DNA of 40,565 nt, taken from NCBI GenBank assembly GCA_013815585.1, contig JACDFU010000004.1, positions 1-40,565 on the forward strand, read 5' to 3'. The translations under genes were made by a program, and so were the position numbers. Source of the stretch: Chloroflexota bacterium. GTDB lineage: Bacteria > Chloroflexota > Limnocylindria > Limnocylindrales > CSP1-4. Within the stretch, counting starts at the first letter, position 1. Each line of letters starts with the position of its first letter. Positions 1-31,900 of the stretch are shown here, one piece after another. The notes beneath the pieces were generated by a model. The model was given only the letters and a program-made list of their open reading frames with translations, ran no database searches and was not told the origin of the DNA.

Positions 1-1120
1 GGCTCGCGTCGGGCGCTCCATGGCCGCAACCGCCGACCTGCTGCCAAGCTCGCGCGCCGCGGCAATCGCCGGCGACCGGGTGGCGCGGGGCAGCGCGAGT
101 CACGCCTGGCTGCCGATCATCTATGGCTGCGACAAGACCTGCACCTATTGCATCGTTCCGTTCAGCCGCGGCCCGGAGCGGAGCCGGCCCTTCGATGACG
201 TCATCGACGAGGCACGGGGGCTGGCCGCCGCCGGCTACCAGGAGGTCACGCTCCTCGGGCAGAATGTCAATTCCTACGGGCACGACCTGCCCGTAGAGGG
301 GCGCTTTCGCGAGATCCGTGGGGGCCGCGAGCTCGGCCGGCGCCTCGACCTGGCTGGGCGGCCGGACATGGCCTCGCTGCTCCGAGCCATCGACGGGCTG
401 CGGACCGCCGACGGTGCTCCGGCCATCCCAAGGCTGCGCTTCGTGACGAGCCATCCCTGGGACCTAGGCGAGCGCCTGATCGGGGCAATGGCGACCTGTC
501 CGTCGGTCTGCGAGCACCTCCACCTGCCCGTACAGTCGGGAGATGACACGGTGCTACGCCGCATGGGCCGGCAATACGGCGCCGAGGCATATCTGCGCCT
601 GGTCGAGCGCCTCCGGGCGGCCGTCCCCGAGATCAGCCTCAGCACCGATGTGATCGTCGGGTTCTGCGGCGAGACCGACGCGCAGTTCGAGCGGACGCTG
701 GCCCTGCTTCGTGAGGTCGGCTTCGACCAGGTCTTCGCCGCTGCCTTCTCGCCGCGACCCGGTACACCCGCCGCCAGGGTCGCTGACGACGTCAGCCCGG
801 CCGAGAAGAAAGCCCGGCTGCAGACGCTGCTGAATTTCCAGGAGGAGATTGGGCTCGCCCGAAATCAGGATTGGCTCGGCAGGGTCACCGAGGTCCTCGC
901 CGACGAGGTCCGGCCGGCCCGAATGCACGACCACGAAGGCTCCCCGGGCGGACCGCTGCAGGTTGGCGTTGGGGAAGAACCCGTGGTTCGACTGGCAGGG
1001 CGCAATCGCCAGAACCGGCTGGTCCACTTCGACGGCCCGGCACGACTGCTCGGCAGGCCGGTCGACGTTCAGATCGAGCGCGCGGGCCCCTACGCGCTGT
1101 CGGGGAAGCTGGCGAGCTGA
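1..1120 (+). CDS. miaB: tRNA-2-methylthio-N6-dimethylallyladenosine synthase MiaB, 5' end cut by window edge
   Basis: Radical SAM CxxxCxxC (YGCDKTCTYCIVPFSRG), LGQNVNSYG, LHLPVQSGDDTVLRRMGRQY, TDVIVGFCGE; frame open to window start; C-terminal TRAM-like region. Confidence 0.95.
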   Translation, partial: ARVGRSMAATADLLPSSRAAAIAGDRVARGSASHAWLPIIYGCDKTCTYCIVPFSRGPERSRPFDDVIDEARGLAAAGYQEVTLLGQNVNSYGHDLPVEGRFREIRGGRELGRRLDLAGRPDMASLLRAIDGLRTADGAPAIPRLRFVTSHPWDLGERLIGAMATCPSVCEHLHLPVQSGDDTVLRRMGRQYGAEAYLRLVERLRAAVPEISLSTDVIVGFCGETDAQFERTLALLREVGFDQVFAAAFSPRPGTPAARVADDVSPAEKKARLQTLLNFQEEIGLARNQDWLGRVTEVLADEVRPARMHDHEGSPGGPLQVGVGEEPVVRLAGRNRQNRLVHFDGPARLLGRPVDVQIERAGPYALSGKLAS

Positions 1121-9659: not shown

Positions 9660-9973
9660 AGGCAGGAACGACGATCGAGGTTGACAGCCAGCCCGCTCTG
9701 GACGGGACGCGTTGTGATGTCCGCGTTGCCGATGCCCTGGGCGAGACCCGTCACAGGGTCTGGATCAGCCAGGCGGACCTGGAGCACCTGGCGCCGCCCG
9801 GAACCGATGCCGATGCGCTGATTAGTGCCTCGTTCGCGTTTCTGCTGGAGCGTGAGCCAAAGGAATCGATCCTCAGCGAGTTCCGAATCGGCGAGATCAG
9901 CCGCTACTTTCCGGAGTACGACACCGAGATCCGGGCCGGGTTGGGTCCGCCCGATCCGCCGGGGACCTCCTAG
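9656..9973 (+). CDS. Small hypothetical protein, absent from the supplied ORF track (no ATG/GTG/TTG start)
   Basis: Frame open 9605-9973; protein-like translation LKAGTTIEVDSQPALDGTRCDVRVADALGETRHRVWISQADLEHLAPPG...ASFAFLLEREPKESILSEFRIGEISRYFPEYDTEI; CTG at 9656 overlaps the hflX TGA. Confidence 0.65.
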   Translation: MKAGTTIEVDSQPALDGTRCDVRVADALGETRHRVWISQADLEHLAPPGTDADALISASFAFLLEREPKESILSEFRIGEISRYFPEYDTEIRAGLGPPDPPGTS

Positions 9974-10722
9974 GGCGACCCTCCCGGCGACGGGGAGGCA
10001 TCCGGTACGGGCGAGGCGGAGGCACCAGGCCGTTGTGGGATCACGAGTCGCTGGCCGATCTCCAGGAGGTCGGGGTCCGCGATGTCGTTTGCCTCGACCA
10101 GGGCCTCGACGGTCACGCCGTAGCGCTCGGCAATCTCGCTGAGCGTCTCTCCCTCGACCACGACGTAGAGCGTCTCAGAGGCAGAGGGACTGGCGTCGTG
10201 GGAGGCAGAGGAACTGGCGTCGGGGAAGGCAGACGCAGGGCTCCCAGTCAGCGTTGGCGAGCTCGGACTGGGAGAGATGTCGAGCAGCTCGTGCTCCGGC
10301 GGTTGCTCCGGTGTCCCGGACACGAACCGAATGACCTCGGACGCACCCGTTGCGGCAACCGTCACCCCGGCCGCGAGGAACAACGCCACCACGACCGCCA
10401 GGGCAATCGACTGCAGGCGCACCATCAGCGGAACATCCGGCTCGAAGGCGGATCGCAGCGTCGCTCGATAGGAGGCGACCATGTCTGTCCAGGAGCGCGA
10501 CGCCACGGCGCGGGCGAAGGACCGAGCCGGCGTCGGGCGCGGCTCGCGGTCAATGACCGCATACGCCCGGTCGAGCAGTCCAGGCGGGACCTGTGGGGCA
10601 TTCTCCTGTGCGTGCGACCGGAGCGACTCGTCGACCAGCTCGAGCCCCTCGGGAAGCTCGCGAGCACCGGGCTCGACGTCATCAAGCCTGCGGTCGCCGT
10701 TCGGGCCGTTCACGCGCGTCAT
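9970..10722 (-). CDS. Membrane protein with extracytoplasmic LysM domain, probable anti-sigma-like partner of the adjacent ECF sigma
   Basis: One TM segment (SIALAVVVALFLAAGVTVA), Ser/Pro linker, C-terminal LysM YVVVEGETLSEIAERYGVTVEALVEANDIADPDLLEIGQRLVIP. Confidence 0.8.
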   Translation of the reverse strand: MTRVNGPNGDRRLDDVEPGARELPEGLELVDESLRSHAQENAPQVPPGLLDRAYAVIDREPRPTPARSFARAVASRSWTDMVASYRATLRSAFEPDVPLMVRLQSIALAVVVALFLAAGVTVAATGASEVIRFVSGTPEQPPEHELLDISPSPSSPTLTGSPASAFPDASSSASHDASPSASETLYVVVEGETLSEIAERYGVTVEALVEANDIADPDLLEIGQRLVIPQRPGASASPVPDASPSPGGSP

Positions 10723-11321
10723 CCCTCACCCTCGGAGACCGGTCCCGATGAGCCGGCCGAGCCCCGCAGGCGCTCGAGCCCGCGATGCAGGTGCGTCTTG
10801 ACCGTTCCCAAAGGCCGCCCGGTCGCAGCCGCGATCTCGCTCAGCGACAGCTCAGCGAAGTAGCTGAGCGTGATGACCTCGCGCTGCTGATCGGGAAGGT
10901 CCGCGACCTCGCGCAGCAGCGCCTGCCGCCTCTCCGCCGTGAGCGCGGCGTCGACCGGATCGGCCTGCGCACGATCAGGAAGCTCGCTGACGGCCTCGAG
11001 CGGAACTGCGTCGCGTCGGCGCGCACGGCGAGCCAGGGAGCGCCGCGAGGCGATGCGTGAGAGCCATCCCCGCAGCGTCCCTTCCCCTCGGAACGTGTTA
11101 AGTGACCGGTAGGCCGTCAAGAAGGTCTCCTGGGTGGCGTCCTCCGCCTCCTGGGGGTCCGTGAGCACTCGATAACAGACGCGATACACGATCTCGGCGT
11201 GGCGTTCCATCAGGATCCGGAAGGCCTCGCGATCCCCCTGGGCGGCGGCTCGGACCGTCGCCCCTTCGTCGTACGGCTCCGCCTCTCCGTCCCCGACAAG
11301 GTCGCTTCTCTGGTGGCTCAC
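10719..11321 (-). CDS. ECF RNA polymerase sigma factor
   Basis: Region 2 YRVLTDPQEAEDATQETFLTAYRSLNTFRGEGTLRGWLSRIA; region 4 LPDQQREVITLSYFAELSLSEIAAATGRPLGTVKTHLHRG; ATGA overlap with next gene. Confidence 0.92.
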   Translation of the reverse strand: MSHQRSDLVGDGEAEPYDEGATVRAAAQGDREAFRILMERHAEIVYRVCYRVLTDPQEAEDATQETFLTAYRSLNTFRGEGTLRGWLSRIASRRSLARRARRRDAVPLEAVSELPDRAQADPVDAALTAERRQALLREVADLPDQQREVITLSYFAELSLSEIAAATGRPLGTVKTHLHRGLERLRGSAGSSGPVSEGEG

Positions 11322-12117: not shown

Positions 12118-13968
12118 TCAGCGGGGAGTGCCGACTCCCTCGGTGCAGGCTCCGCCGCGCTCCGGAGCTGTTGCGGCCAGGCGGAAAGCCTGGATGAATT
12201 GGCGGAGTCGAGGATCGTCGGGCCCATCCACGGCCAGCTGGCGGCCCCATGCCGTTGTCACCACGGGCGCACTCAGACCGTCATATGGGCTGACCAGGAT
12301 GTGAATCTGGCTGTAGGCGATCGAGCGCAGCCGAGCCTTCTGGTCGTCCGGCAACTCGGGCCGGTAGGCGATCCAGACAGCGCCGTGCTCGAGGGAGTGG
12401 ACGACATTCTCGTCAGCGATCGGCGCGTCGTAGAATCCGCAGTTCTGCCAGATCGGGGCGTGGTCACCTCCGACCGGCGGTCTCTGTTCGTAGGCGACCG
12501 AGCCCTGCACGTGACTTCGACCGGCGACCGCAACGGTCTGCACGTCACCGGGGGCCGAGGCAAGAAACGGTAGCTGCGGGATCCACAGGATGCCCAGGAC
12601 GGCTGCAGCTCCCACCCCGGTCAGGCCAGCGGTCAGCGCGCGTCGCGGGTTAACCCGCCCCCATCCGACCAGGCCGGCAAGAAGCCTACGTCCGACCAGG
12701 ACGATGAGATAGACAGTGACCGCCAGCGGCAGGACTGCCAGGGCGAGCTGAAGGAGGGCCAGGGCAATCCCATCGGCGCGTCCCTGTTCCCGTGCCTCGG
12801 CGAGCTGCCCTAGCTGATGGAGCGTCGCATCCGAGGCCGCCGCAACGAGCGCCGGTACCCCGCCCACAACCAGGACGATGAGAACCGCGAGCGCCGGGAT
12901 CGTGAGCGCCAGGAAGACCAGAAAAGTGACACGAGGTGCACGGCGAAGCTCAGGCAGCCGTTCCCCCGCTCCCCCACGTGAGCCGAGGAGACTTCGGATG
13001 AAGGGGCCCGCCTGGGAGAAAAGGTCCGGCACACCTGCGAGGTCGGTCAAAACCCAGTAGCCGTCGAGTCTCAGGAACGGAATTAGCTGGCGCACGATCT
13101 CGACGTCGATCAGCAGAACGCCGAGCAGCAGGAATGGCTGACCGGTGAGCAGGTAGAGCCCGATGATCCCCAGCGCCGCAAGGAGGTGGAAGTAGATGCC
13201 GCCGAGATCGGTGCGCAACCTTCCGGCACGTGACAGGCGATAGCTGTCGGTGACATCGGTGAAGAGCGCGGGGTAGACGAGAAAGAGGCCGACCCCCATC
13301 GCGCCGACGCGCCCGCCCCCGTAGACGAGGGCTGCAGCGTGACCCAGCTCGTGCACGATGCCCGCCAGGACGAGCAGGAGGAGCAGAACGAGGATGAGAG
13401 CGGGCGCGTACAGCAGCTGGAGCACGCTGTCGGAGATCCCACGCGCTGCGAACAGCCAGGCATGGCTGGCACCGATCAGAGCAACCAGAACCACGACGAG
13501 CGGCGGCCAGAACAGCCACCGAAGGGGTTTCGCCAGCGCATTCACGGTCGACTCCGGGACCACCCCCAGCCGGGTATGAAGTCCGAGCGCTGACCCGGCG
13601 GCGGGGAGCGTCGACGCTGCTCCACCTCCTTCGGCCACGATCAGCCCCAGCGGTGTCAGCTTCTTGTCGATGAGAAGGGCAACCTGCTCGGCACTGACCA
13701 GCCAGGGGCTCGACCTGCTGACGACAGCCGCGATCTCCTCGACGGTCCGGCGGCCATCGATGACTTCTGCAACCCGATACAGGAGCTCCGTGAGCTGAAC
13801 GAACCGGCCTTCGCGGCGGACCAGCCACTGCTCCTGCGCGAAGCCACTCCCCTGCAGCTTGCCGACCAGCTCAACGCCGTTCGTCAATGAGGGTGGCTTC
13901 TCGAGGGCGGGCACGTTGCCCTGGACACGCAGGCTTGCGCGACGGTCGTCCATCTCGATGAGCATCAA
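12118..13968 (-). CDS. PqqD-like domain / M50 family peptide zinc metalloprotease / C-terminal DUF3105 fusion
   Basis: N-terminal PPSLTNGVELVGKLQGSGFAQEQWLVRREGRFVQLTELLYRVAEVIDG; HELGH in IVHELGHAAALVYGGG with multiple TM segments; C-terminal VGGDHAPIWQNCGFYDAPIADENVVHSLEHGAVWIAY. Confidence 0.85.
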   Translation of the reverse strand: MMLIEMDDRRASLRVQGNVPALEKPPSLTNGVELVGKLQGSGFAQEQWLVRREGRFVQLTELLYRVAEVIDGRRTVEEIAAVVSRSSPWLVSAEQVALLIDKKLTPLGLIVAEGGGAASTLPAAGSALGLHTRLGVVPESTVNALAKPLRWLFWPPLVVVLVALIGASHAWLFAARGISDSVLQLLYAPALILVLLLLLVLAGIVHELGHAAALVYGGGRVGAMGVGLFLVYPALFTDVTDSYRLSRAGRLRTDLGGIYFHLLAALGIIGLYLLTGQPFLLLGVLLIDVEIVRQLIPFLRLDGYWVLTDLAGVPDLFSQAGPFIRSLLGSRGGAGERLPELRRAPRVTFLVFLALTIPALAVLIVLVVGGVPALVAAASDATLHQLGQLAEAREQGRADGIALALLQLALAVLPLAVTVYLIVLVGRRLLAGLVGWGRVNPRRALTAGLTGVGAAAVLGILWIPQLPFLASAPGDVQTVAVAGRSHVQGSVAYEQRPPVGGDHAPIWQNCGFYDAPIADENVVHSLEHGAVWIAYRPELPDDQKARLRSIAYSQIHILVSPYDGLSAPVVTTAWGRQLAVDGPDDPRLRQFIQAFRLAATAPERGGACTEGVGTPR

Positions 13969-14510
13969 CGAAGGAGCTCGCCGGCGATCGAGTCCTGGAC
14001 GAGCTGAGCCGTGGCGTCCGTGTCGGCGCTCACGAGCCAGTTTGGTCCCGCGACGCGGGGGACGCTTTCGACGCCCGCCTCGCCAAGCAGTGCCCCTATG
14101 CTGGCAAGGTACCGATTTCGGGCACCTGGATCTTGGAAGACCCGGATGACGACATCATCGGCGCCGATCTTGCAGCGGCCGGCGTCCAGCTCGCCGGACC
14201 CCGCGGGTCGACTCTCGAGCCCCTCACAGGTGACACCCCGGTCGGCCAGCGCCTGTACCAGGCTCGTCGCGCTATCGAAGGTTGGACCCTGTGTTCCAAG
14301 ACTGGCATAGGCCGCAGCGTCTCCCTCCCCCGACAGCCCGAAGCCTTGCCCTCGCTGGTCCGTGGTGAGGCTAAACAGGACGATGACACCGGCCAGGACC
14401 AGCAGGGCTGTGAGGATGACACCGAGTTGGGCTCGGCGCCCTCCGAACAGCCTTGGCCGCCCGTTCACCCGCGCTCCCGCGGCGGCGTGATCAACCGACG
14501 CTTCCTTCAT
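13965..14510 (-). CDS. Membrane-anchored extracytoplasmic protein, hypothetical
   Basis: N-terminal TM (LGVILTALLVLAGVIVLFSL) and exported two-Cys domain; ATGA overlap with the M50 gene. Confidence 0.75.
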   Translation of the reverse strand: MKEASVDHAAAGARVNGRPRLFGGRRAQLGVILTALLVLAGVIVLFSLTTDQRGQGFGLSGEGDAAAYASLGTQGPTFDSATSLVQALADRGVTCEGLESRPAGSGELDAGRCKIGADDVVIRVFQDPGARNRYLASIGALLGEAGVESVPRVAGPNWLVSADTDATAQLVQDSIAGELLR

Positions 14511-14554
14511 GCTCCCTCATCCGGCGGGGAGCCATTGTGGCCCACCAACAGAAA

Positions 14555-14577
14555 GCGGGCCGGTCGAGCCGGCCCGC
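14555..14577 (-). terminator. Perfect 9-bp stem hairpin between small peptide gene and downstream genes (terminator/attenuator candidate)
   Basis: gcgggccgg-tcgag-ccggcccgc; on the minus strand followed by TTTCTG. Confidence 0.55.
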
Positions 14578-14614
14578 CATGGTTACCGGACCCCATCGAG
14601 GGGTCGCGGGGTTC

Positions 14615-14851
14615 CTACTGCTTCTGCTCGATTGTGCAGGTTAGCGGGGTGCTCAGCCAGGTGCTGAGTGCGGTCACGACTGCGCAGACTTGCACAGCGA
14701 CGTTGTTGTTTTTCACCTCGAGCTTCAGATCATTCAGGATGTTCACGCTGCCGATCACGATGGTCACGAGCATCGTCTCGCGCGCCGGGAGCTCGAAGCC
14801 GGCCTGGGACTCGAGATCGGCAGTCGTTAATGCGGTCTTGGTAAGCGACAT
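14615..14851 (-). CDS. 78-aa small peptide, candidate RiPP precursor
   Basis: MSLTKTALTTADLESQAGFELPARETMLVTIVIGSVNILNDLKLEVKNNNVAVQVCAVVTALSTWLSTPLTCTIEQKQ; strong SD AAGGAGG 7 nt before ATG 14851. Confidence 0.75.
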   Translation of the reverse strand: MSLTKTALTTADLESQAGFELPARETMLVTIVIGSVNILNDLKLEVKNNNVAVQVCAVVTALSTWLSTPLTCTIEQKQ

Positions 14852-15048
14852 GAATAAGCCTCCTTGGGCTCTGGGGCGCCTCGTGGGTTGCGGCGCGTCA
14901 CTGGTAAAGAGGGGCACGAGGCCCCGAACGGTTTCACGGATCCTCTACGGGAATCCGCAGACTCTCAGCAAACCCGCAACGCCCGATTTACGGGAACAGG
15001 TGGGTATGCGCTCGTCCCTAAGACGGCGACATCCATACCATCCGGTGC

Positions 15049-17844
15049 GTGTCAGCGATCGTTGCCCGGAGCGCCGAGCTGGCGCAGGTGCAGGAATTCC
15101 TGGACGAAGTCCTCGCGGGCCCCGCCGCGATGGTGCTGGAAGGCGAGACCGGCGCAGGCAAGACGACCATCTGGAAGGCCGCTCTCGAGGCGGCACTTGC
15201 CCGGGGATACCGCGTCCTCTCCTGTCGCCCTGTCGAGGCCGAGTCGTCGCTGGCGTTCGCGGCGCTTGGCGACCTGTTTGATGGCGTGCTGGAAGAACTG
15301 GATCCACCGCTGCCTGGACCCCAGCAGCACGCACTCGAAGTTGCGATTCTCGTCGCCAATCCCGAGGGTCCACCGCCAGACCAGCGCGCCGTTTCAGTGG
15401 CTTCACTGGGCGTTCTTCGGTCGCTCTCGGCGCGCTCACCCGTACTCGTGGGCGTCGATGACCTCCACTCGATGGACATCGCATCCGCTCGGGTCCTCGA
15501 GTTCGTGCTTCGGCGTCTCGAGGTCGACCGCGTGGGCTTCGTCGCGGGACTGCGCAGCGGAGATACGGCCCCACTGTCGATGGACCAGACCTATCCGGAG
15601 GCACGCCTTCACCGGCTGGCGGTCGGCCCGCTCGACGGCGACGCACTGGACGAGCTGTTCCGCTCGCGCCTGGGCGGAAGCTTCCCCAGACCCGTGCTGC
15701 GGCAGATCGAAGCGGCATCTGGGGGCAACCCGCTGTTTGCACTGGAGATCGCCAAAGGCATCCTCCGCGGAGACGTCAGTGCTGAGCCCGGGGAACACCT
15801 TCCTGTCCCCGACACGCTCCAGGAACTCATTCGCGACCGGCTGGGAGCGTTGTCAGCTGACGTGCGGGATGTCCTTTCAGCGGCCGCCGCATTGTCCGAT
15901 CCAACGCTTGAGATGCTGGAGCGTGCCGCCCCGACCGAAATGCCGACGCTCCGCGCGGTGGAGGAGGCGATCGAAGCCGGAATTGTCGAACTGAGCGGGC
16001 AGAGCCTTCAGTTCAGCCACCCCCTGTTCGCCTCGACGCTATACCACCAGATCACTCCCAAACGCAGGCGCGCGCTGCATCGTCGACTGGCTGACCTCGT
16101 GTCCACCCCGGAGGAGCGGGCACTTCACCTCGCACTTGCCGCGGCCGGTCCCGACGCCGCCGTGGCTGCCGCGCTGGACCAGGCGGCTCGAAGGGCCGCC
16201 GCGCGCGGCGCCCCGGACGCTGGCGCCGACCTCTCCGAGCAAGCGTACCGACTGACCCCCGCGAGAAGTGCCGGGGAGGCAACTCGCCGGCGAGTCGAGG
16301 CAGCGGAGTATCACTTCGCGGCGGGCGACACTGGGAGGGCACGTCGCCTGCTGGAGGAAGTCGCATCAGCCGCGGAGCCGGGGCCGGTCCGCGCGGGCAT
16401 CCTCCGCCGCCTGGCCAAGGTGCGCTACCGTAGCGACAGTTGCTCCGTAGCCGCGGAGCTTCTCAACCGAGCCCTCCAGGAGACGGGCGACAACCCCTCG
16501 GCGCGAGCCGAGATCCAGCGCGATCTCGCCTGGGCTGTGACGTTGTGTGGTGACGTACCGAACGCGGCGGAATACGCGCAGGCTGCGCTCCAGGCGGTTC
16601 AGGGCGAGACGGCTGAGCAGATGGTGCCGGAGCTCCTCGCGGCTTCCGCAATGGCCGAGTTCCTCCTGGGGCGCGGGATCCCCAGGGATCTCATGCGCCG
16701 CGCTGTAGAGCTCGAACGACCCAGTCCCGACGTTCCGATCGAGTGGCGCCCCAGCATGGTGCTGGGCATGATGCTCAAGTGGTCCGGCGACCTCATCGGC
16801 GCCCGAACGCGCTTCGAGAATTTGCACCGGCAGGTGCTTCAGGCGGGGGAGGAAACGTCCCTCGCATTTCTGCTTTCCCAGATGAGCGAGGGCGCAACGC
16901 TCGAGGGCGATTGGAGCACGGCGCTTCGGCAGGCGGACGAGGCCGACAAATTCGCCCTGCAAACTGGTCAGGACCTGGTTCGGGCCGGCGTGCTCTATGC
17001 CAAGAGCCTCGTCCAGGCGCACATGGGCCACGCGGATGAGGCGCGTGAAACCGCCCGTGCGGGCCTGGCCCTTTCGGAGCGGGTCGGCTCGGTGCTGACC
17101 ATGATGCTCAACCAGACCGTGTTGGGGTTCGTGGAGCACTCGCTCGAGAAACCAGCCGCCGCGCACGGCTACCTGGCACCGTTAGTCGCCTGGCTCGACA
17201 TCGTCGGAATTCGGGAGCCGGGTATCTTCCGGTTCGTCCCGGACGAGGTGGAGGCCCTGATCGCCCTCGGCGATCTTGACAAGGCACAGGCACTGCTTGC
17301 GCCCTACGAGGAGGACGTCGCGCGGCTCGACCGACCGTCACCGCTCCTGGCGGCCGCCCGCTGCCGCGCGCTGCATACCGGTGCGGTGGGCGATTCCTCG
17401 GCCGCGGCGTCATTGCTCGAACGTGGCTTGAGCGACCACGGAGAGCTTGCCCAGCCCTTTGAGCGTGCCCGTGCCTGGCTTGTGATGGGTACGATCCAGC
17501 GTCGTACCCGGCAGCGGCGAGCCGCTCGAGCGTCGCTTCAACAGGCGTTGGAGATCTTCGACCACCTGGGTGCCAAGTTATGGTCATTGCGGGCGCGGCG
17601 TGCGCTAGGCATACGAATGGAGCGGGGATCGACAGGCGGGGCCGTGCTCACGCCGGCCGAGCGGCGCGTAGCCGAGCTGGTCGCCTCGGGTGGTACGAAT
17701 CGCGAGGTCGCCGACCGCCTGTTCGTGAGCGTGAGAGCCGTCGAGCTCCACCTCACGAGTATCTACCGTAAGCTCGGCATCAGGTCTCGCACTGAGCTTG
17801 CGCTAAAGATCGTGCGTGACGACGCAGCGGTCGCTCGGATGTGA
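15049..17844 (+). CDS. LuxR family transcriptional regulator with N-terminal AAA ATPase
   Basis: Walker A LEGETGAGKTTIW; PVLVGVDDLHSMD; C-terminal LTPAERRVAELVASGGTNREVADRLFVSVRAVELHLTSIYRKLGIRSRTEL. Confidence 0.92.
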   Translation: MSAIVARSAELAQVQEFLDEVLAGPAAMVLEGETGAGKTTIWKAALEAALARGYRVLSCRPVEAESSLAFAALGDLFDGVLEELDPPLPGPQQHALEVAILVANPEGPPPDQRAVSVASLGVLRSLSARSPVLVGVDDLHSMDIASARVLEFVLRRLEVDRVGFVAGLRSGDTAPLSMDQTYPEARLHRLAVGPLDGDALDELFRSRLGGSFPRPVLRQIEAASGGNPLFALEIAKGILRGDVSAEPGEHLPVPDTLQELIRDRLGALSADVRDVLSAAAALSDPTLEMLERAAPTEMPTLRAVEEAIEAGIVELSGQSLQFSHPLFASTLYHQITPKRRRALHRRLADLVSTPEERALHLALAAAGPDAAVAAALDQAARRAAARGAPDAGADLSEQAYRLTPARSAGEATRRRVEAAEYHFAAGDTGRARRLLEEVASAAEPGPVRAGILRRLAKVRYRSDSCSVAAELLNRALQETGDNPSARAEIQRDLAWAVTLCGDVPNAAEYAQAALQAVQGETAEQMVPELLAASAMAEFLLGRGIPRDLMRRAVELERPSPDVPIEWRPSMVLGMMLKWSGDLIGARTRFENLHRQVLQAGEETSLAFLLSQMSEGATLEGDWSTALRQADEADKFALQTGQDLVRAGVLYAKSLVQAHMGHADEARETARAGLALSERVGSVLTMMLNQTVLGFVEHSLEKPAAAHGYLAPLVAWLDIVGIREPGIFRFVPDEVEALIALGDLDKAQALLAPYEEDVARLDRPSPLLAAARCRALHTGAVGDSSAAASLLERGLSDHGELAQPFERARAWLVMGTIQRRTRQRRAARASLQQALEIFDHLGAKLWSLRARRALGIRMERGSTGGAVLTPAERRVAELVASGGTNREVADRLFVSVRAVELHLTSIYRKLGIRSRTELALKIVRDDAAVARM

Positions 17845-20458: not shown

Positions 20459-20860
20459 TCAGGCGAGCCAGTTCTCGAGGCGGAGGTCCGGCACCCGCTC
20501 GAAGTGACGTTGGTTGCCGGAAACCAAGGTCAAATCGAAGGCGAGCGCGATCGCGGCGATCCGGAGATCCGGCTCAGCCAGAGGAGTACCAAGGCGTTCG
20601 AGGTGAGCCTTCAGACGGCCGAAGATCTCTGCGCCCTTCTCGTCGAACGGCAGAACCGGCAGGGCGTCCGTGAGCTGCTCGAATCGCTCCATGAGGTCCT
20701 CGCGGTTTCGGCGGACAGCACCAAAGACCAGTTCGCCAAGGCTGATCGCGGACATGAACTGTTCCTCGGCCGCGACCGTGGCCAAGCGCCGGACAACTCG
20801 GACGTCGGGATTTCGGCGCAGGGTCGCGGAAAGTGTGTCGGTGTCGAGCAGATAGCTCAT
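20459..20860 (-). CDS. vapC: PIN domain toxin (VapC)
   Basis: MSYLLDTDTLSATLRRNPDVRVVRRL...DLRIAAIALAFDLTLVSGNQRHFERVPDLRLENW. Confidence 0.9.
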   Translation of the reverse strand: MSYLLDTDTLSATLRRNPDVRVVRRLATVAAEEQFMSAISLGELVFGAVRRNREDLMERFEQLTDALPVLPFDEKGAEIFGRLKAHLERLGTPLAEPDLRIAAIALAFDLTLVSGNQRHFERVPDLRLENWLA

Positions 20861-21144
20861 TCGAGCTCGGGGAGCGGGCGATCAGCGGCCGCCTGGCGAC
20901 CGGCAACGACGTCGGCCATGACAGACTCAAAGTCATCCCAGTCAGCCAGCAGCCCTGTAACAGACAGGAGCCCGCCTGCGCGCTCTGCCCGGGGGTGCTC
21001 AGGGTCGGACGTACCCACATACGGGACGACACGCGCGACCGGCCGGTCCCGCCTGACCACAACCGTCGCTTCGCCCCGTTCGGCGGCATCGAGGACCCGG
21101 CGAAAGTCACGCTTTAGCTCGCCCACCGCTAGTTGCCGTGTCAT
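20857..21144 (-). CDS. Phd/YefM-type antitoxin
   Basis: MTRQLAVGELKRDFRRVLDAAERGEATVVVRRDRPVARVVP; ATGA overlap with vapC. Confidence 0.85.
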   Translation of the reverse strand: MTRQLAVGELKRDFRRVLDAAERGEATVVVRRDRPVARVVPYVGTSDPEHPRAERAGGLLSVTGLLADWDDFESVMADVVAGRQAAADRPLPELE

Positions 21145-24894: not shown

Positions 24895-25416
24895 TCAATC
24901 TCCCCGTTCGTCGGGAGGATCGCGCCGGAGTTCCTGGGCGACTCTCTCGAGCAGTTCCAGGTGGCCGGCGTCCTTCGGACGACCGGCGGTCCTGTTCATC
25001 GCGATCAAGTGATCCACGCTCGCGACCGGGTACGTGGCTGAGCCATGGATTGTTCGCGCACTTGCCGCGAGCGACGTGTAGGTCAGTCCGGGAGCCGGCT
25101 CGTCGAGGAGATCGAGTCGCCCAAACCTCGTCTTCAACGTCCAGACGCTTCCGCTTGCCAGCGACCGCTCGTCCAGCTTGACCGTTACGCCGGACGGTAG
25201 GCCGATGGGCTCGGCGTCCAGAGCCGCAAGCGCAGCCGCGAGGTGTGTGAGGTCTTGCCGGTCCCGGGCGTACACAAGATCGAGATCCGTCGTCAGCCAC
25301 ATGGCACCCTGTACGCCGGCGGCGATGCCGCCAATCACGACAAACCGCACTCGGTGTTCGTTCAGGACGCGGATGATCGCGATTGGATCGAAAACGCCGG
25401 CCGCGTCCTCGGTCAC
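24895..25416 (-). CDS. Nucleotidyltransferase-like protein
   Basis: RFVVIGGIAAGVQGAMWLTTDLDLVYARDRQDLTHLAAAL; GTGA overlap with the mod stop. Confidence 0.78.
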   Translation of the reverse strand: MTEDAAGVFDPIAIIRVLNEHRVRFVVIGGIAAGVQGAMWLTTDLDLVYARDRQDLTHLAAALAALDAEPIGLPSGVTVKLDERSLASGSVWTLKTRFGRLDLLDEPAPGLTYTSLAASARTIHGSATYPVASVDHLIAMNRTAGRPKDAGHLELLERVAQELRRDPPDERGD

Positions 25417-28199
25417 TGACTGGTCTGCGCGTCGTCGATCATCCGAAGCATGTTCCGGTTCGAGGCGAGGTAGTAGGCCTCCCGTTCTTCATCGCTCATC
25501 CGCACGAGCCGGCCAATTTCGACCTGGTCCGCGTCCGCCTGCGCCTGGCCCGCGGTGCGCGACTCGCTGAAACCCGACGGACCGCTCGCCCGGTCCACGG
25601 TGAACACCTTCATGACCTCGTCGCCGTAGTGGTTGATGACCTTCACGGCGATCTTGCCGGTTGACGGGCGCGGGAATGGCCGGCTGACCGTCGAGTTGAT
25701 GCTGGCCCAGGCCTCGTCGCTGATGTCGGCCTTCAGGGCGCGGCGGAGCTTGTCGTAGGGATCGTTGGCGCCGGTGAAGTAGGCGTGGCGGACGAAGAAG
25801 GCATCGCCGTCGTAGCTCGTGTCCAGGAACCAGGCCGCGATGTCCTCGACCGACGATGAGCGGAGCACGCCGGTGGTCGGGTCGTAGACGTCGAGCCCGC
25901 GGACCTCGACCGTGAGCTGGTCGTCGCCAGCCGGCCGCACCTCGATGTCGGGCTCGCCGAAGACCATGAACAGGTTGCCCGAGCCGGTCTTCTTGAGCAG
26001 CTCGTCGCCCATCGCCAGGTCGGGGTTCATGCGCGCCTGGAGGATGGTCAGCCGGCCGAGGGTGGAGGCCTCCTCCCCTGCCAGCGGGTCGAAGGCGAAG
26101 CCGCACACGACGAGCAGGTCGGCGATCTTGACCGCTTCCTTGGCCGCCTCGCGGATGAGCTCGGGGCCGACGGTGCCGAACTCGGGCCCGATGGCGATCG
26201 CGACCGTCTTCGGATGGCTGTTTTCAGCGTACTCCCCGACCGCCTGGACGTAGACGCCCGGGTATGGGTCGAGTCGGCTGAACTGGAGGCGCTCCTTGCG
26301 CTTGGTGTTCTGCACGCCGGCTCGACGAAGGTTGTCGAGGATACTGGTCACGAACTGACCCGAGTCGGGCGACGATGGCGGAGGCTCGGCGGCGTTGTCC
26401 TCCGGCCCGGTGCGCAGGACTCGGTGGGGCGAGAGACTCTCGACCGTGAATGGGCCCGACACGCGGACGATCTTGCGGTCCTCGTAGGGGCGGTCGAAGA
26501 GCGTCTCGGTCTCGGCGTGACGGGCGATGGCGGCGTCGATCTCCTCGCGGGTCATGCCCTCGCGGATGTCGGGGTTCTGAGCGATTGACCTCAAGGTCAC
26601 GTGCGGCACGCGCTCGTAGACGAAGCCGCGCCGGACGTCGTTGGTAGTTGACGAGATCGGCGATGGAGGCGCGATGCCGGTCACCTCGGCCGCCTTGCGA
26701 ATGCCGGCCTCCGAGTCGGCCAATATGTAATACGGGTATTTGGCGGCCATCACGCGCGAGCGCGCGAGGGCGAGGGCGACGCGACTCGTGTCTATCGTGA
26801 TCCAGCGCCTCCCCCACTGCTCGGCCACGAATGCGGTCGTGCCCGAGCCGCAAGTCGGATCGAGCACGAGATCGCCTGGGTCGCTGGTCATCAGCATGCA
26901 TCGGGCGATAACTCGTATTCCCGTCTGCACTACGTACAGGCGTTCCTCGCCGTAGCCCGAGCGCATCGTGTCGTCCCACAAGTTCGTCACGCGCACAACT
27001 GGGAAGTCCTCGGCAAACCTCTTGTATGTCAGGGTTCGTCCGACACCTAGCAGCCGATCCGCATCGCGCAATCGGCTCATCCCATCGCGGTTCGTCTTCC
27101 AGTACCACTTCCCCGGAAGCATGTATTCGACTCCGTCGACGTGGACCGGGAATCGCGTCGTGTCTCCACCGCTCTCTGAAAATAGGCCATCAGCCTTGAA
27201 GCGCCTGGGAATTCGCGAGCCAGAGGCGAGTTCCGCTCTCGATATCCGCTCCACATGGCCGTCCGCCAACTGTCGCCAGGTGTATTGCTCTAGGAGCGTG
27301 TCGTCAGTCCTGTCAGAGTAGAGCTGTCGGAACTTCAAAGCTTGTTGTGCTCGCGCATACCACAAGAGAGAGTCATAGACGGCGTCTAACGCCGCCCCAG
27401 CCTTTCCACTGGTCTTTCGGAAGGCAATCTGAGCCACAAAGTTGTCTGGCCCGAAGATTTCATCGAGAACTGACCGGACGAGATGGACGTTCTCGTCGCC
27501 GATCTGGACGAAGATCGAGCCTGAGTCGGTCAGCAGCTCGCGGGCGACGGCCAGCCGATCGCGGAGGTAGCTGAGGTACGAGTGGATCCCGAGCTCCCAG
27601 GTGTCCCGATACGCGCGCACCTGCTCGGGCTGGCGCGTCAGGTCGGTGTCCTTGCCGTCGCGGACGTCGCGCTTGCGGGTCGAGACCTGCCAGTTGGAGC
27701 CGAACTTGATGCCGTAGGGCGGGTCGATGTAGATGGTCTGGACCTGGCCCTTGAGGCCTTCCTTCTCGGCGAGGCTGGTCATCACGAGCAACGAGTCGCC
27801 GAGGATCATGCGGTTCGCCCACTTGCCGGGGTGGCGATAGAAGTCGACTTTTTCCTCGAACGTCAGGTCCGTATAGGGCGCGAAGAAGCCGAGCTGCTGC
27901 TCTGAGCGGCGGCCCTCGCTCTCGGCGCGGAGCTCCTCGACCAGCGCGAGCGGGTCGATCGTCTCCTGGATGTAGATCGGGACGGCCGGAACCTGGAGGT
28001 CGTGGCTGTCCTGCTCGTCCTTGCCCTTCCAGACGAGCTGCGGGTCGAGGGTCGGGTCGCGGGGATAGCGCACGATCGCGGGCCTCTTCTCCTCTGGGCG
28101 GGCGAACGACTCCAGCTCGGCAGTCGGGATGTTCGAGCGGCTGTCCGACGGATGGGTGGTCGCACGCACGACCGTGCGGGGCTTGATCTTCTCAGCCAC
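25413..28199 (-). CDS. Site-specific DNA-methyltransferase (beta-class, type III Mod-like)
   Basis: TIYIDPPYGIKFGSNW, SIFVQIGDENVHLVRSVLDEIFG, DPTCGSGTTAFVAEQWGRRWITIDTSR. Confidence 0.9.
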   Translation of the reverse strand: MAEKIKPRTVVRATTHPSDSRSNIPTAELESFARPEEKRPAIVRYPRDPTLDPQLVWKGKDEQDSHDLQVPAVPIYIQETIDPLALVEELRAESEGRRSEQQLGFFAPYTDLTFEEKVDFYRHPGKWANRMILGDSLLVMTSLAEKEGLKGQVQTIYIDPPYGIKFGSNWQVSTRKRDVRDGKDTDLTRQPEQVRAYRDTWELGIHSYLSYLRDRLAVARELLTDSGSIFVQIGDENVHLVRSVLDEIFGPDNFVAQIAFRKTSGKAGAALDAVYDSLLWYARAQQALKFRQLYSDRTDDTLLEQYTWRQLADGHVERISRAELASGSRIPRRFKADGLFSESGGDTTRFPVHVDGVEYMLPGKWYWKTNRDGMSRLRDADRLLGVGRTLTYKRFAEDFPVVRVTNLWDDTMRSGYGEERLYVVQTGIRVIARCMLMTSDPGDLVLDPTCGSGTTAFVAEQWGRRWITIDTSRVALALARSRVMAAKYPYYILADSEAGIRKAAEVTGIAPPSPISSTTNDVRRGFVYERVPHVTLRSIAQNPDIREGMTREEIDAAIARHAETETLFDRPYEDRKIVRVSGPFTVESLSPHRVLRTGPEDNAAEPPPSSPDSGQFVTSILDNLRRAGVQNTKRKERLQFSRLDPYPGVYVQAVGEYAENSHPKTVAIAIGPEFGTVGPELIREAAKEAVKIADLLVVCGFAFDPLAGEEASTLGRLTILQARMNPDLAMGDELLKKTGSGNLFMVFGEPDIEVRPAGDDQLTVEVRGLDVYDPTTGVLRSSSVEDIAAWFLDTSYDGDAFFVRHAYFTGANDPYDKLRRALKADISDEAWASINSTVSRPFPRPSTGKIAVKVINHYGDEVMKVFTVDRASGPSGFSESRTAGQAQADADQVEIGRLVRMSDEEREAYYLASNRNMLRMIDDAQTSQ

Positions 28200-28267: not shown

Positions 28268-28522
28268 ATGACCGAGGTCGCTTCGCGTGAACTCCGCAAC
28301 AACACACGTGCGCTGCTCGATCGCGTCGCGGCCGGCGAGTCGGTGACGATCACGGTCGACGGGCGACCGGTCGCGGTCCTCGCCCCCGTCGGACGGCGCC
28401 CGCGCTGGATGCCCAAGGAGGAATTCCTGCGGATGCTGAGCGGGCGCCAGGCTGACCCCGGCCTCACAAAGGTGCTCAGAGAACTCGCTCCCGACACGAC
28501 CGACGACATCCCGCTGGCGTGA
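28268..28522 (+). CDS. Phd/YefM-type antitoxin
   Basis: MTEVASRELRNNTRALLDRVAAGESVTITVDGRPVAVLAPV. Confidence 0.88.
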   Translation: MTEVASRELRNNTRALLDRVAAGESVTITVDGRPVAVLAPVGRRPRWMPKEEFLRMLSGRQADPGLTKVLRELAPDTTDDIPLA

Positions 28523-28905
28523 CCGACGGTCTCGCCGACACGTCCATCTTCGTCGCCCGGGAGTCGGGCCGGCCGGTCCGGGCAGACGTGGTGCCCCAGC
28601 GACTCGCCGTGTCGGTAATCACGATCGGCGAGCTTCGCGCCGGAGTCCTCGCAGCCGAGGATCTCGAGACCAGGGATCGCCGTCTCGTCACGCTGACGCT
28701 CGCGCTGTCCCTCGATCCGGTACCCGTCGATGATCGCGTCGCGGAAGCGTGGGCACGCCTGCGGCTGGCCCTCGCCAAGGCGGGCCTCCGCATGCCGGTC
28801 AACGACTCCTGGATCGCCGCCACCGCGATGGCCCTCGGCGTCCCGGTCGTGACGCAGGACGACGATTACGTCGAGGTGCCGGGGCTCGCGGTCATCCACG
28901 CCTGA
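28519..28905 (+). CDS. vapC: PIN domain toxin (VapC)
   Basis: VTDGLADTSIFVARESGRPV...LAVSVITIGELRAGVL...NDSWIAATAMALGVPVVTQDDDYVEVPGLAVI; GTGA overlap. Confidence 0.9.
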   Translation: MTDGLADTSIFVARESGRPVRADVVPQRLAVSVITIGELRAGVLAAEDLETRDRRLVTLTLALSLDPVPVDDRVAEAWARLRLALAKAGLRMPVNDSWIAATAMALGVPVVTQDDDYVEVPGLAVIHA

Positions 28906-31900
28906 TCCTCACCGGGGCACCCGGGGACGGCTGAAGGAAGCGAGCTCGGATCAGGTTGCCGGCGTCCCACGGGTCGGTGACCTCGAGGAATGCCCAGCGG
29001 CCGAGGCCGCCCCAGTTGTTCACGGCCACCGTCCAGAGATGCTCCGCTGTTGCGACCTTCGCCTGCTTCTCCTTCTTGGCCTCGCCAGTGACCTCCAGGA
29101 CGAGCGTGAGCAGGTCGTCCGGGCCGGACGACGCCGGATGCCGCAGGCGGATGAGGAAGTCGGGCACGTAGTTCCCTGCCCTCCCCTCGTACGTATACGG
29201 GATCTTGAAGTTGAGGCCCTGGTTCTTGGCGTAGGTCACGACCTCCGGCATCGACTCCAGGACCTCGGCCAGCTTGCACTCCCAGCCGGAGTCCTGGACG
29301 ACCAGGTTGAGGTGACTCCTGGTCGCCTCGCAGCAGACCTTGGTCGTCTCGAACCAGACGTCGTCCGTGGAACCGATCGGCTCGTACGGCCGGAGATTCG
29401 GGAGGAGCCGCTTCTCGCCCCGCGTGCCGGCGTAGATGGCGTTGCGGATCCTGTCTGCCGCGGCGTGGCTGTACTCCGTGAAGAGGAGCATCTGCGGGAA
29501 CGTGTTGTCCTTGAGGTACGGAGTGACGCATTCGTCGATCCAGGCATTGGTGATCCGGACGAGCTGCGGGAAGAGCCACGGGCGCTGGCCGCCGTCCTCG
29601 TCTCGGAAGTGGTTGTCCAGCGTGCGCTTGGCGATGGCGAAGACGACCGTCTGCATCCGATGGTCTCGCAGGTCGACCTCGTGCACGTCCATCTCGCCGA
29701 CGATCGGATCGACCTCCGTCCGTAGCGCCACGTCGCGCGTCGAGAGTTCCAGGATCGACGAGGCGTCGAACCGCGCGTCCAGGCGGTCGGTCGGCATCTC
29801 GTAGCGGTAGCCGACGAGCTTGGGGAACTCGATCCGCAGGTCCGAGCGCTCGGGCAGCGCCCGAACGGTGAGCACGGGCTTGGAGCTCTTTGGCTTCCCC
29901 TTTCCGGCGACCGACAGGAAGCTGAACGGCACGCCGTAGACCTCGGCATATTCCGGCTCGAACATCCCGTCCGGCGTGGCGTCGTAGCTTGCTCGCCTGA
30001 GCGCGCGCCCGACGACCTGCTCGCACAGCAGCTGCGTCCCGAACGCGCGGATGCCGAGGATGTGCGTCACGGTGTTCGCGTCCCAGCCCTCCGTGAGCAT
30101 CGCGACCGAGACCACGCAGCGGACGTGCTCGCCCAGCCGGTCGCGCTTCCCGACGGTGTTCATCACCTCGCGGAGGATGTCCTCGTCGGTGATCTCGTCC
30201 GCGCTGCGGCCCGGGAAACGCGCTACGTACTCCTGCTTGAAGCGTTCGATCTCCGCGGCGGCCGCCTTGCGGAAGGTGGGGTCGAGGGCGTCGCCCCGGT
30301 CCAGCTGCGCGGAGTCGACGAGGATGGTGTTCGGGCGGTCGCGGAAGCGGCCGTCCTGCTCGTTGGAGAAGAGCGGCAGGTGCCCGGGAGCCACCACGGT
30401 GCCGCCATCCTCGAGCTTCACCTCCCAGCCGGCAATCCAGTCGGCGACGAGCTTGGAGGTCGCGGTGTTGGAGCAGACCACGATGAACACCGGCGGCACA
30501 CCGAGACCCGCCTTCTCCCAGGCGGCGAAGTCGCGCTCGTAGTCCCGGTAGAGCGAGAAGAGCGCGCCTTCCAGCTCCTTGGGGATCACCGGCTGCCCGT
30601 CGATCGGCGTGTCCCTGATCCCCTTCTTCGGGAGGGCGTCGCGCACCCGCAGCCACAGCTCGCGGTACATCGGGCCCTGGCCCGTCATCGAGTCGTCGCG
30701 GACGGGCACGCGCGGGATCTTCACGATTCCCGACTCGATCGCGTCCATCAGCCCGAAGTCGGAGACGACCCAGGGAAAGAGCGTTCCCTCCGCGTAGCCG
30801 GAGCCCTTGAGGAAGAAGGGCGTGGCGGAGAGGTCGTAGACCGCGCGAATGCCGAGCTTCTCCCTGACGGCCTGCAGCCCGGAGAGCCAGATGCGGGCCT
30901 CCTCCTGGTCCTTCTTCGCGAGGACTCGCTCGTCTGGATCGAGCGCGGCTTCCTCCGCCTGCTCCTTGGGCGCCGGCGCGTAGCAGTGGTGCGCCTCGTC
31001 GTTGATCACGACGAGGTTCTTCGCGTTGCCGAAGTCGCGGAGGACACGCCGGACCATCTCCGCCGGCGTCTCGCGGAACCGCCCGTCGTCACCGTGCGGA
31101 CCGACGAGCACCTTCTTCGTGAGGCTCGCGGCCTGGATCTTTTCGCGGCGGATGAAGGCGTGGAAGTTCGTGATCAGGATGTCGGCGGCCTGCAACCGGT
31201 CGAGCTGCTCCGGAGTGACGATCTCGAGCGCCCGGTAGAAGTTGTGGGGGTCGTTCGGAAGCAGCACTCGGAGCCGGTCGCGGATCGTGATGCCGGGGGC
31301 CACGATCAGGAAGCGGTCGGCGAACCGGCGGTCCTGCGGGCTGGCCTGCTTGTTGAGCGCCTGCCAGGCGATGAGCATCGCCATCAGGACCGTCTTGCCG
31401 GAGCCCGTCGCCATCTTGAACGCGACCCGTGGCAGCCCGCCGTTGAGGGCTTCGTTCTCGCTCCGGATGACGTTCAGCGCTTTTGTGTCACCCAGCTTCT
31501 CCGCAGCTTCCGTCAGGTAGATCGCCGTCTCGGCCGCCTCGATCTGGCAGAAGAAGAGCCGGCGCTCACGGTCCTCACCCTGCCAGTGCTGGAGGAGGTC
31601 GCGCGTGACCGACGTAATGTGCGGGTAGCCCAGCTGACGCCAGCTGGTGACGGACTGGCGGATCTCGTTGACGATCTCGTTCGGCTGCTGCCGCTGGGGC
31701 CCGCCGAACTGGTCCATCGACATCTGCCCGGACAGCTTCTTCGGGCGGGCGACCGGAACGAAGAACTCCGACGGCCGGCGACGCGGCGCGATCTCACCGG
31801 TGACCCTGCCGGCGGGGGACGTCACGAAGTGGCGCGCCGGCTCCACGAACGGCGAGTTGATGATCGGGTTCTCGATCGTGCCTGGCTGGGCGGTGCCCTC

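Follow-up and report, generated by a model that had tools for sequence, protein, structure and literature searches.

A candidate leader-guided peptide maturation system built around an RRE-M50-DUF3105 protein in Chloroflexota

What could be the purpose of a short peptide whose gene lies close to that of a membrane protease with a peptide-recognition domain, at a locus without the usual modification enzymes? The question is raised by three minus-strand genes in a 40,565-nucleotide stretch of DNA from a Chloroflexota bacterium (contig JACDFU010000004.1), the whole of which is called the window here. In order, the genes encode a 78-residue peptide (P0001), a membrane-anchored protein (P0002) and a protein (P0003) that joins a RiPP recognition element (RRE; RiPP, ribosomally synthesized and post-translationally modified peptide), an M50 protease and a DUF3105 domain. 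A preliminary description of this DNA had given the order and places of the genes, a strong Shine-Dalgarno sequence (AAGGAGG) in front of the peptide gene and a transmembrane (TM) anchor in P0002, and in all of this it was correct. It had also given an ATGA overlap of the last two genes, which has to be amended: the junction reads TTGATG, so the overlap is TTGA if P0003 starts with TTG and a single shared base (TGATG) if it starts with the ATG at 13965. We consider the locus a minimal system for leader-guided maturation and release, whose unmodified core would serve extracellularly as a small, beta-rich peptide of the surface or matrix, a reading to which we assign a probability of about 0.6.

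Precursor peptides and their linkage to the protease

The peptide gene (14615..14851, minus strand) begins with ATG, 7 nt from its Shine-Dalgarno sequence (14859..14865, minus strand). Judged by sequence, the peptide is a member of a family not yet described: these peptides are covered by none of the curated families in Pfam or NCBIfam, and that of the window matches no Pfam family at E < 1. Conservation and the register of the daptide motif divide it into a leader, residues 1-27 (14771..14851), terminating in ELPARETM (14771-14794), and a predicted core, residues 28-78 (14618..14770), which is V-rich and contains NNN and two Cys (C56 and C72). In related peptides the leader has an upstream part L-x3-E-L-[ED]-x-[EQ] and the consensus end E-L-P-x-R-[ET]-x-[ML]; when one peptide per locus is counted in 71 loci, P is present in 71/71, R as well as the L before P in 70/71, and L or M at +5 in 68/71, and the cores are very variable. 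This is in accordance with the leader/core organisation that had been proposed from the window alone, as is the hydrophobic, Asn-rich C-terminal half with two Cys: the core has a GRAVY (grand average of hydropathy) of 0.65, a maximum mean hydropathy over 19 residues of 1.41 and a preference for strand-forming residues. The closest homolog (locus L080) is identical in 37 of 74 aligned residues, and the segments VAVQVCA and LTC of the core are conserved in L080 and in one further locus, L088. Nucleotide identity between the window and L080 is 0.68, 0.73 and 0.49 at codon positions 1, 2 and 3, the pattern expected for a conserved protein, which together with the presence of homologs in other phyla indicates that the peptide is more than a chance open reading frame (ORF).

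Relatives of the protease were collected by comparing an alignment of 20 proteases with named representative genomes, which gave at least 408 relatives, the best 80 of them being kept as loci. These 80 belong to Chloroflexota, to Actinomycetota (many Streptomyces, but also Saccharopolyspora, Rubrobacter marinus, Nocardioides and a Mycobacterium) and to one metagenome-assembled genome of Acidobacteria; protease matches at E 1e-8 are present in 64 of 400 genomes of the phylum. Upstream of close protease homologs short ORFs with a leader of the window type can be read. When fixed criteria were applied (a short ORF with an LPx[RK] motif, a Shine-Dalgarno sequence and low Arg, within 1.5 kb, at least 450 bp of upstream DNA being required), such candidates, one to five genes each, were found upstream of the protease in 69 of the 79 loci with enough upstream DNA, a rate which is descriptive only because related loci are not independent. 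Their density is 1.22/kb upstream of the protease vs 0.012/kb elsewhere, a difference of about 100-fold, and the misses are partly explained by a contig edge (L082), masked bases (L083), peptides on the reverse strand (L102) and a variant leader, LEDRE (L136). The reverse search, with a profile of 18 peptides (A3), matched 20 of the 400 phylum genomes, and 18 of these 20 carry a close M50 homolog, that is, they are among the 20 genomes whose protease match is better than about 1e-60 (Fisher p 5e-27, relatedness ignored). Peptide matches on other contigs mostly reach contig ends (L180, L183, L186). Peptide homologs do, then, adjoin RRE-M50 genes as had been anticipated, and since 18 of the 20 peptide-positive genomes have a close protease, the peptides do not occur mainly without it. 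A chance ORF beside an unrelated M50 protease, for which only the small size of the gene speaks, is refuted by the linkage enrichment, the reverse search, the conservation by codon position and the homologs found at the same place in three phyla.

On a finished Streptomyces plasmid the order of genes is peptide, protease and a partner protein with CxxC repeats (discussed below), all annotated as hypothetical proteins. Among the 107 genomes of the window's own family a single full-length protease relative was present (L002), and a single-sequence search of these genomes gave no further peptide. One pair of peptide genes (L181:3290-3837, in genome G326) is apparently a true orphan, with no adjacent protease and followed by a response-regulator-like gene; this genome has proteases elsewhere.

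The RRE-M50-DUF3105 protein and its neighbours

P0003 (12118..13968, minus strand, if read from the TTG at 13968) has 616 residues. The winged helix supposed for its N-terminal PqqD-like segment is supported by an AlphaFold2 model built with 47 relatives, in which residues 32-104 (13657..13875) adopt a beta3-alpha3 fold in blocks of 86-96 pLDDT (predicted local distance difference test). A Foldseek search with the whole model pointed to PqqD (5sxy, probability 0.95), the leader-bound RRE of TbiB1 (5v1u, 0.95) and the RRE of TruD (4bs9, 0.99) and, more weakly, to the site-2 protease of M. jannaschii (3b4r), all at E > 0.1, which is probably due to the RRE being a small part of a large query; by sequence the RRE segment resembles PqqD 3g2b weakly (E 0.26). 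The zinc site HELGH (residues 206-210, 13339..13353) and the second M50 motif LDGYW (residues 301-305, 13054..13068) follow, and H206, E207, G209, H210, D302, G303 and Y304 are invariant in 47 aligned homologs. As H206, E207, H210 and D302 are among them, the protease looks intact. HExxH and a distal Asp in a multi-TM domain are the features of a site-2 protease (S2P), helices being present in the model, and P0003 matches, below their cut-offs, the NCBIfam models daptide_HExxH (NF041824, E 9e-33, 113.9 bits for a cut-off of 300) and LiaK/YydH (NF058609, E 8e-14, 52 bits for a cut-off of 225), which supports the M50 protease read from HELGH. The C-terminal part, residues 486-609 (12142..12513), is from its sequence certainly a DUF3105 domain (Pfam PF11303, E 6.5e-44). 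Searches of the PDB with the DUF3105 sequence and with the M50 profile gave weak hits only.

An RRE fold in a protein of the locus, next to a precursor with a conserved leader and a variable core, is what characterizes RRE leader-guided systems. MpaP is an RRE-dependent intramembrane peptidase which cuts after the Pro of ELExMEAP (PMC10036551), and by its precedent and that of EpeP (PMC10885120) the cytoplasmic RRE of P0003 is expected to bind the conserved precursor leader, and the site-2-protease-type membrane domain to cut near the end of ELPARETM. The spacing of the two motifs is equal, which suggests cleavage after M27 and a core of 51 residues. This core would be released through the protease itself or by an exporter, either a separate ABC transporter or one of another kind; its two Cys could form a disulfide, and the released peptide, V- and N-rich and beta-leaning, may then be handled by the DUF3105 domain, which is probably extracytoplasmic.

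The absence of the usual modification enzymes, also proposed beforehand, was borne out at the locus. In an all-against-all comparison of crude gene calls from 111 loci no tailoring enzyme recurs; the recurring neighbours are peptides, the protease, the CxxC partner and, in 16 loci, ABC ATPases, other recurring clusters being opposite-strand shadows or shared local context. Pfam searches on ten neighbours of the window-class and nearby loci gave sigma factors, anti-sigma factors, transporters, regulators or nothing. The oxidative decarboxylase, aminotransferase and methyltransferase of daptides are absent beside the window genes and not recurrent in the 80 loci. No radical SAM epimerase was found among ORFs neighbouring the window peptide, and the sole radical-SAM-like ORF of the window (20-1120) is far from it. 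We use the term RiPP-like, RiPP being applicable only if the core is modified, conceivably by an enzyme encoded elsewhere. In that case P0003 would do only the final leader removal, as its RRE-S2P fusion, which is the daptide architecture, and its match to the daptide protease model might suggest, as might some more distant M50 loci (L073, L074, L076, L077) located beside larger RiPP-like gene sets. We hold this to be improbable: no tailoring gene recurs in the 80 loci, the cores lack a common residue that a shared modification would need, and P0003 stays far under the daptide cut-off (114 vs 300 bits).

In the four distant loci just mentioned the M50 proteins are situated beside conserved proteins of 500 and 700 amino acids, and in two of them (L073, L074) there are runs of 55-65-residue peptides near the M50 gene; these may represent another type of RiPP, one that employs more enzymes. 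At a further locus (L078:6053-6724, in reversed orientation) a short M50 protein is preceded by three tandem Cys-containing peptides whose leader reads [ED]LPERLNN.

Core types, extracytoplasmic partners and the role of the core

The cores fall into several classes. That of the window, V- and N-rich with two Cys, is shared by L080 and L088 and more loosely by L081, L085 and L087; the commonest class reads NAAVAANVLSDNSxAYANAxQ and is strongly conserved between Chloroflexota and Actinomycetota, a Streptomyces class reads HNESAALNDHSSWSxAxSxAxQ, and the remaining classes are Gly-rich or Cys-rich. In 50 of the 80 loci there is an unannotated domain with two N-x-A-x-A...CxxC...A-x-A-x-Q repeats, for which no Pfam or NCBIfam family scored above cut-off and which either stands alone, behind a signal-like N-terminus, or is fused to the C-terminus of the protease. 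The type of extracytoplasmic partner tracks the type of core: by manual count, the CxxC-repeat domain is present in 37 of the 41 loci whose cores are of the two commonest types, and DUF3105 in seven loci only, the window included, where the cores are two-Cys or N-rich whenever a peptide is readable. As the CxxC domain, when fused, takes the position that DUF3105 has in P0003, and is Sec-exported where it is separate, the protease C-terminus, and hence DUF3105, is probably outside the cell.

Some individual loci are worth recording: an example of the exported CxxC-repeat domain is L100:7682-8398; the core at L107:1417-1587 is nearly all Cys and Pro (CCCQPPSCCSPCCPPPPCIDVCC), unlike every other class; and Mycobacterium sp. 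OAS707 (L159:5098-5898) has a 266-residue version of the peptide in which the leader reads LPAKE and the core is repeated, and after it an 855-residue protease with a fused CxxC domain.

In an AlphaFold2 model the CxxC partner consists of three strand-loop-strand coils stacked on one another, with a pLDDT of at least 90 for 136 residues; in the PDB the functional amyloid FapC comes nearest to it, a weak match (E 7e-3, probability 0.41), with CsgA lower in the list. The repeat of this partner is similar to the commonest cores. The pattern N-x3-A-x-N-x2-[CS]-x2-[CS]-x3-[AS]-x-[AS]-x-Q is confined, among 1,246 gene calls, to 59 peptide calls and 31 partners (the call at L125 is an artefact of reading frame that overlies a peptide), and 24,920 shuffled sequences did not contain it; it was chosen by eye after both families had been seen, and members within each family are related. 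These similarities allow a tentative and, in our opinion, rather doubtful extension, a new route to extracellular beta-solenoid or amyloid-like assemblies in Chloroflexota and Actinomycetota. The peptides would be leader-tagged single-coil subunits, trimmed and released by the RRE-S2P protease, and the CxxC-repeat or DUF3105 domain, membrane-bound or secreted, would seed or anchor the polymer as CsgB does for CsgA in curli.

Several points weigh against an extracellular structural role. The argument for it comes mainly from the sister subtype with the CxxC partner and not from the DUF3105 subtype of the window, whose DUF3105 part is modelled at low confidence. The FapC match has TM-scores of just 0.15-0.20, the shared repeat is absent from the window core, and a hidden Markov model (HMM) of the peptide cores found no match in the CxxC partners; because this core HMM fails, the link between core and partner depends on the post hoc pattern. 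Immediately downstream in the closest relative of the window locus (L050/L080) are genes for an ABC ATPase and an ABC-2-like permease, an arrangement to be expected of a bacteriocin, and every peptide system based on an RRE or S2P that the literature search brought up makes antimicrobials or small natural products.

Alternatively, the locus could make a disulfide-bonded hydrophobic bacteriocin: P0003 would free the two-Cys core of its leader, and the exported core would kill competing bacteria, as with TMcins and epipeptides. S2P-type proteases take off the leaders of both (PMC10885120, PMC13252029), the TMcin has two conserved Cys joined in one disulfide and an ABC exporter (PMC13252029), the window core also has two conserved Cys, and the ABC ATPase of L050, next to its permease, scores to lantibiotic-protection and drug-efflux ABC models, although below their cut-offs. 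However, neither DsbA-like nor immunity genes were seen as recurring neighbours of the locus, an ABC gene is nearby in a minority of loci only, and the hydropathy of the window core (1.41 over 19 residues) is weak for a TM helix. The strong conservation of the commonest core type between two phyla is also unlike that of toxins in an arms race. We take the bacteriocin seriously as the main alternative but think it unlikely, and the extracellular beta-rich role of the core is favoured over it.

Remaining genes of the window and comparison with known systems

P0002 (13965..14510, minus strand) has 181 residues, a single N-terminal TM segment and a remainder that is probably outside; it matches no Pfam or NCBIfam family above cut-off. 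Of the other genomes of the family just one (L002/L082) has a homologous ORF ahead of its protease gene, and 60 relatives that were searched lack it, so P0002 was rejected as a constant partner. Between P0001 and the downstream genes there is a terminator-like hairpin of 10 bp (14554..14578, minus strand), a probable attenuator, with a fold z-score of -3.2 for the 101 nt around it. Similar hairpins are found at the same position in L081, L085, L088 and L093, and the stem after the peptide is longer than in all 20 shuffles in 24 of 65 loci. At this place the hairpin would let more mRNA be made for the peptide than for the protease. Divergently from the peptide gene and 200 bp away lies a LuxR/MalT-type gene (15049..17844, plus strand; NCBIfam response-regulator/MalT matches at its C-terminus), a possible regulator only. 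With regulators or ECF (extracytoplasmic function) sigma factors also near L081 and L087, its position would suit a signalling peptide, a pheromone freed by the M50 protease and answered by this regulator, but with about 51 residues the core would be a long pheromone, there are up to five copies per locus with different cores, and the regulators found nearby are not related in kind, which makes signalling a very remote explanation.

The protease gene is followed on its own strand (9970-11321, minus) by those for an ECF sigma factor (by Pfam) and a LysM-domain TM protein, and the peptide of L081 is likewise flanked by ECF sigma and anti-sigma genes. Elsewhere in the window a type III restriction-modification-like pair was read, a methyltransferase with DPPYGI and a helicase-like protein (25413-28199 and 28892-31846, minus strand), with a VapB/VapC-like pair between them (28268-28905, plus strand), as was a second PIN-domain/antitoxin-like pair (20459-21126, minus strand).

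A literature search, with few subscription journals, brought up neither a paper on DUF3105 nor one on RRE-M50 systems with LPxR leaders. With at least 408 protease relatives in representative genomes, cultured Streptomyces included, the system is common, yet its peptides have no family. RRE-guided proteolysis without tailoring enzymes would imply that leader recognition is separable from chemical modification, and tractable laboratory strains are available for asking what an unmodified RRE-processed peptide is for.

Among the closest known systems are daptides with MpaP/DapP (PMC10036551), where an RRE is likewise fused to the N-terminus of an intramembrane site-2 protease, short precursors (one to several) are encoded nearby, the peptidase removes the leader, as P0003 would, and the leader motif has the same spacing (ELExMEAP vs ELPxRExM). 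Membership was rejected: the defining genes are absent beside the window genes and none of MpaB, C, D and M has a recurring homolog in the loci, the peptide ends in EQKQ and not in Thr, P0003 scores below the NF041824 cut-off, and an extra extracytoplasmic domain, DUF3105 or CxxC-repeat, is present. In epipeptides an M50 membrane protease (EpeP/YydH-LiaK) adjoins a short precursor, and P0003 is recognizable by the NF058609 model; here, however, no radical SAM epimerase was seen beside the window gene, the RRE is fused and the score is under the cut-off, so this candidate was rejected as well. TMcins (TmcA/TmcP/TmcD/TmcBC/TmcE; PMC13252029) have an S2P-clan protease for leader removal, two conserved Cys in the core and an ABC exporter (compare L050), but TmcP belongs to DUF3267/PF11667, no DsbA-like or escort gene recurs here and the window core has no obvious TM helix. 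Chaplins (PF03777) are similar in having a V/N-rich hydrophobic domain of about 40-50 residues, two Cys 16-17 residues apart and several copies per genome, while the peptides described here have no Pfam match, a leader that is no Sec signal, and would be processed by the adjacent M50 protease. By hhalign, the peptide profile scored 18.1 against chaplin domains, compared with at most 14.4 in 40 column shuffles; because the probability is just 18% (over 14 columns), the link is kept as a resemblance only. The functional amyloids FapC and CsgA are approached only through the predicted stacked coils of the sister-subtype CxxC partner, a statistically weak match, and no curli- or Fap-type export genes were seen. 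We place the locus among the RRE-S2P leader-processing systems as a probable new form, apart from daptides, epipeptides and chaplins.

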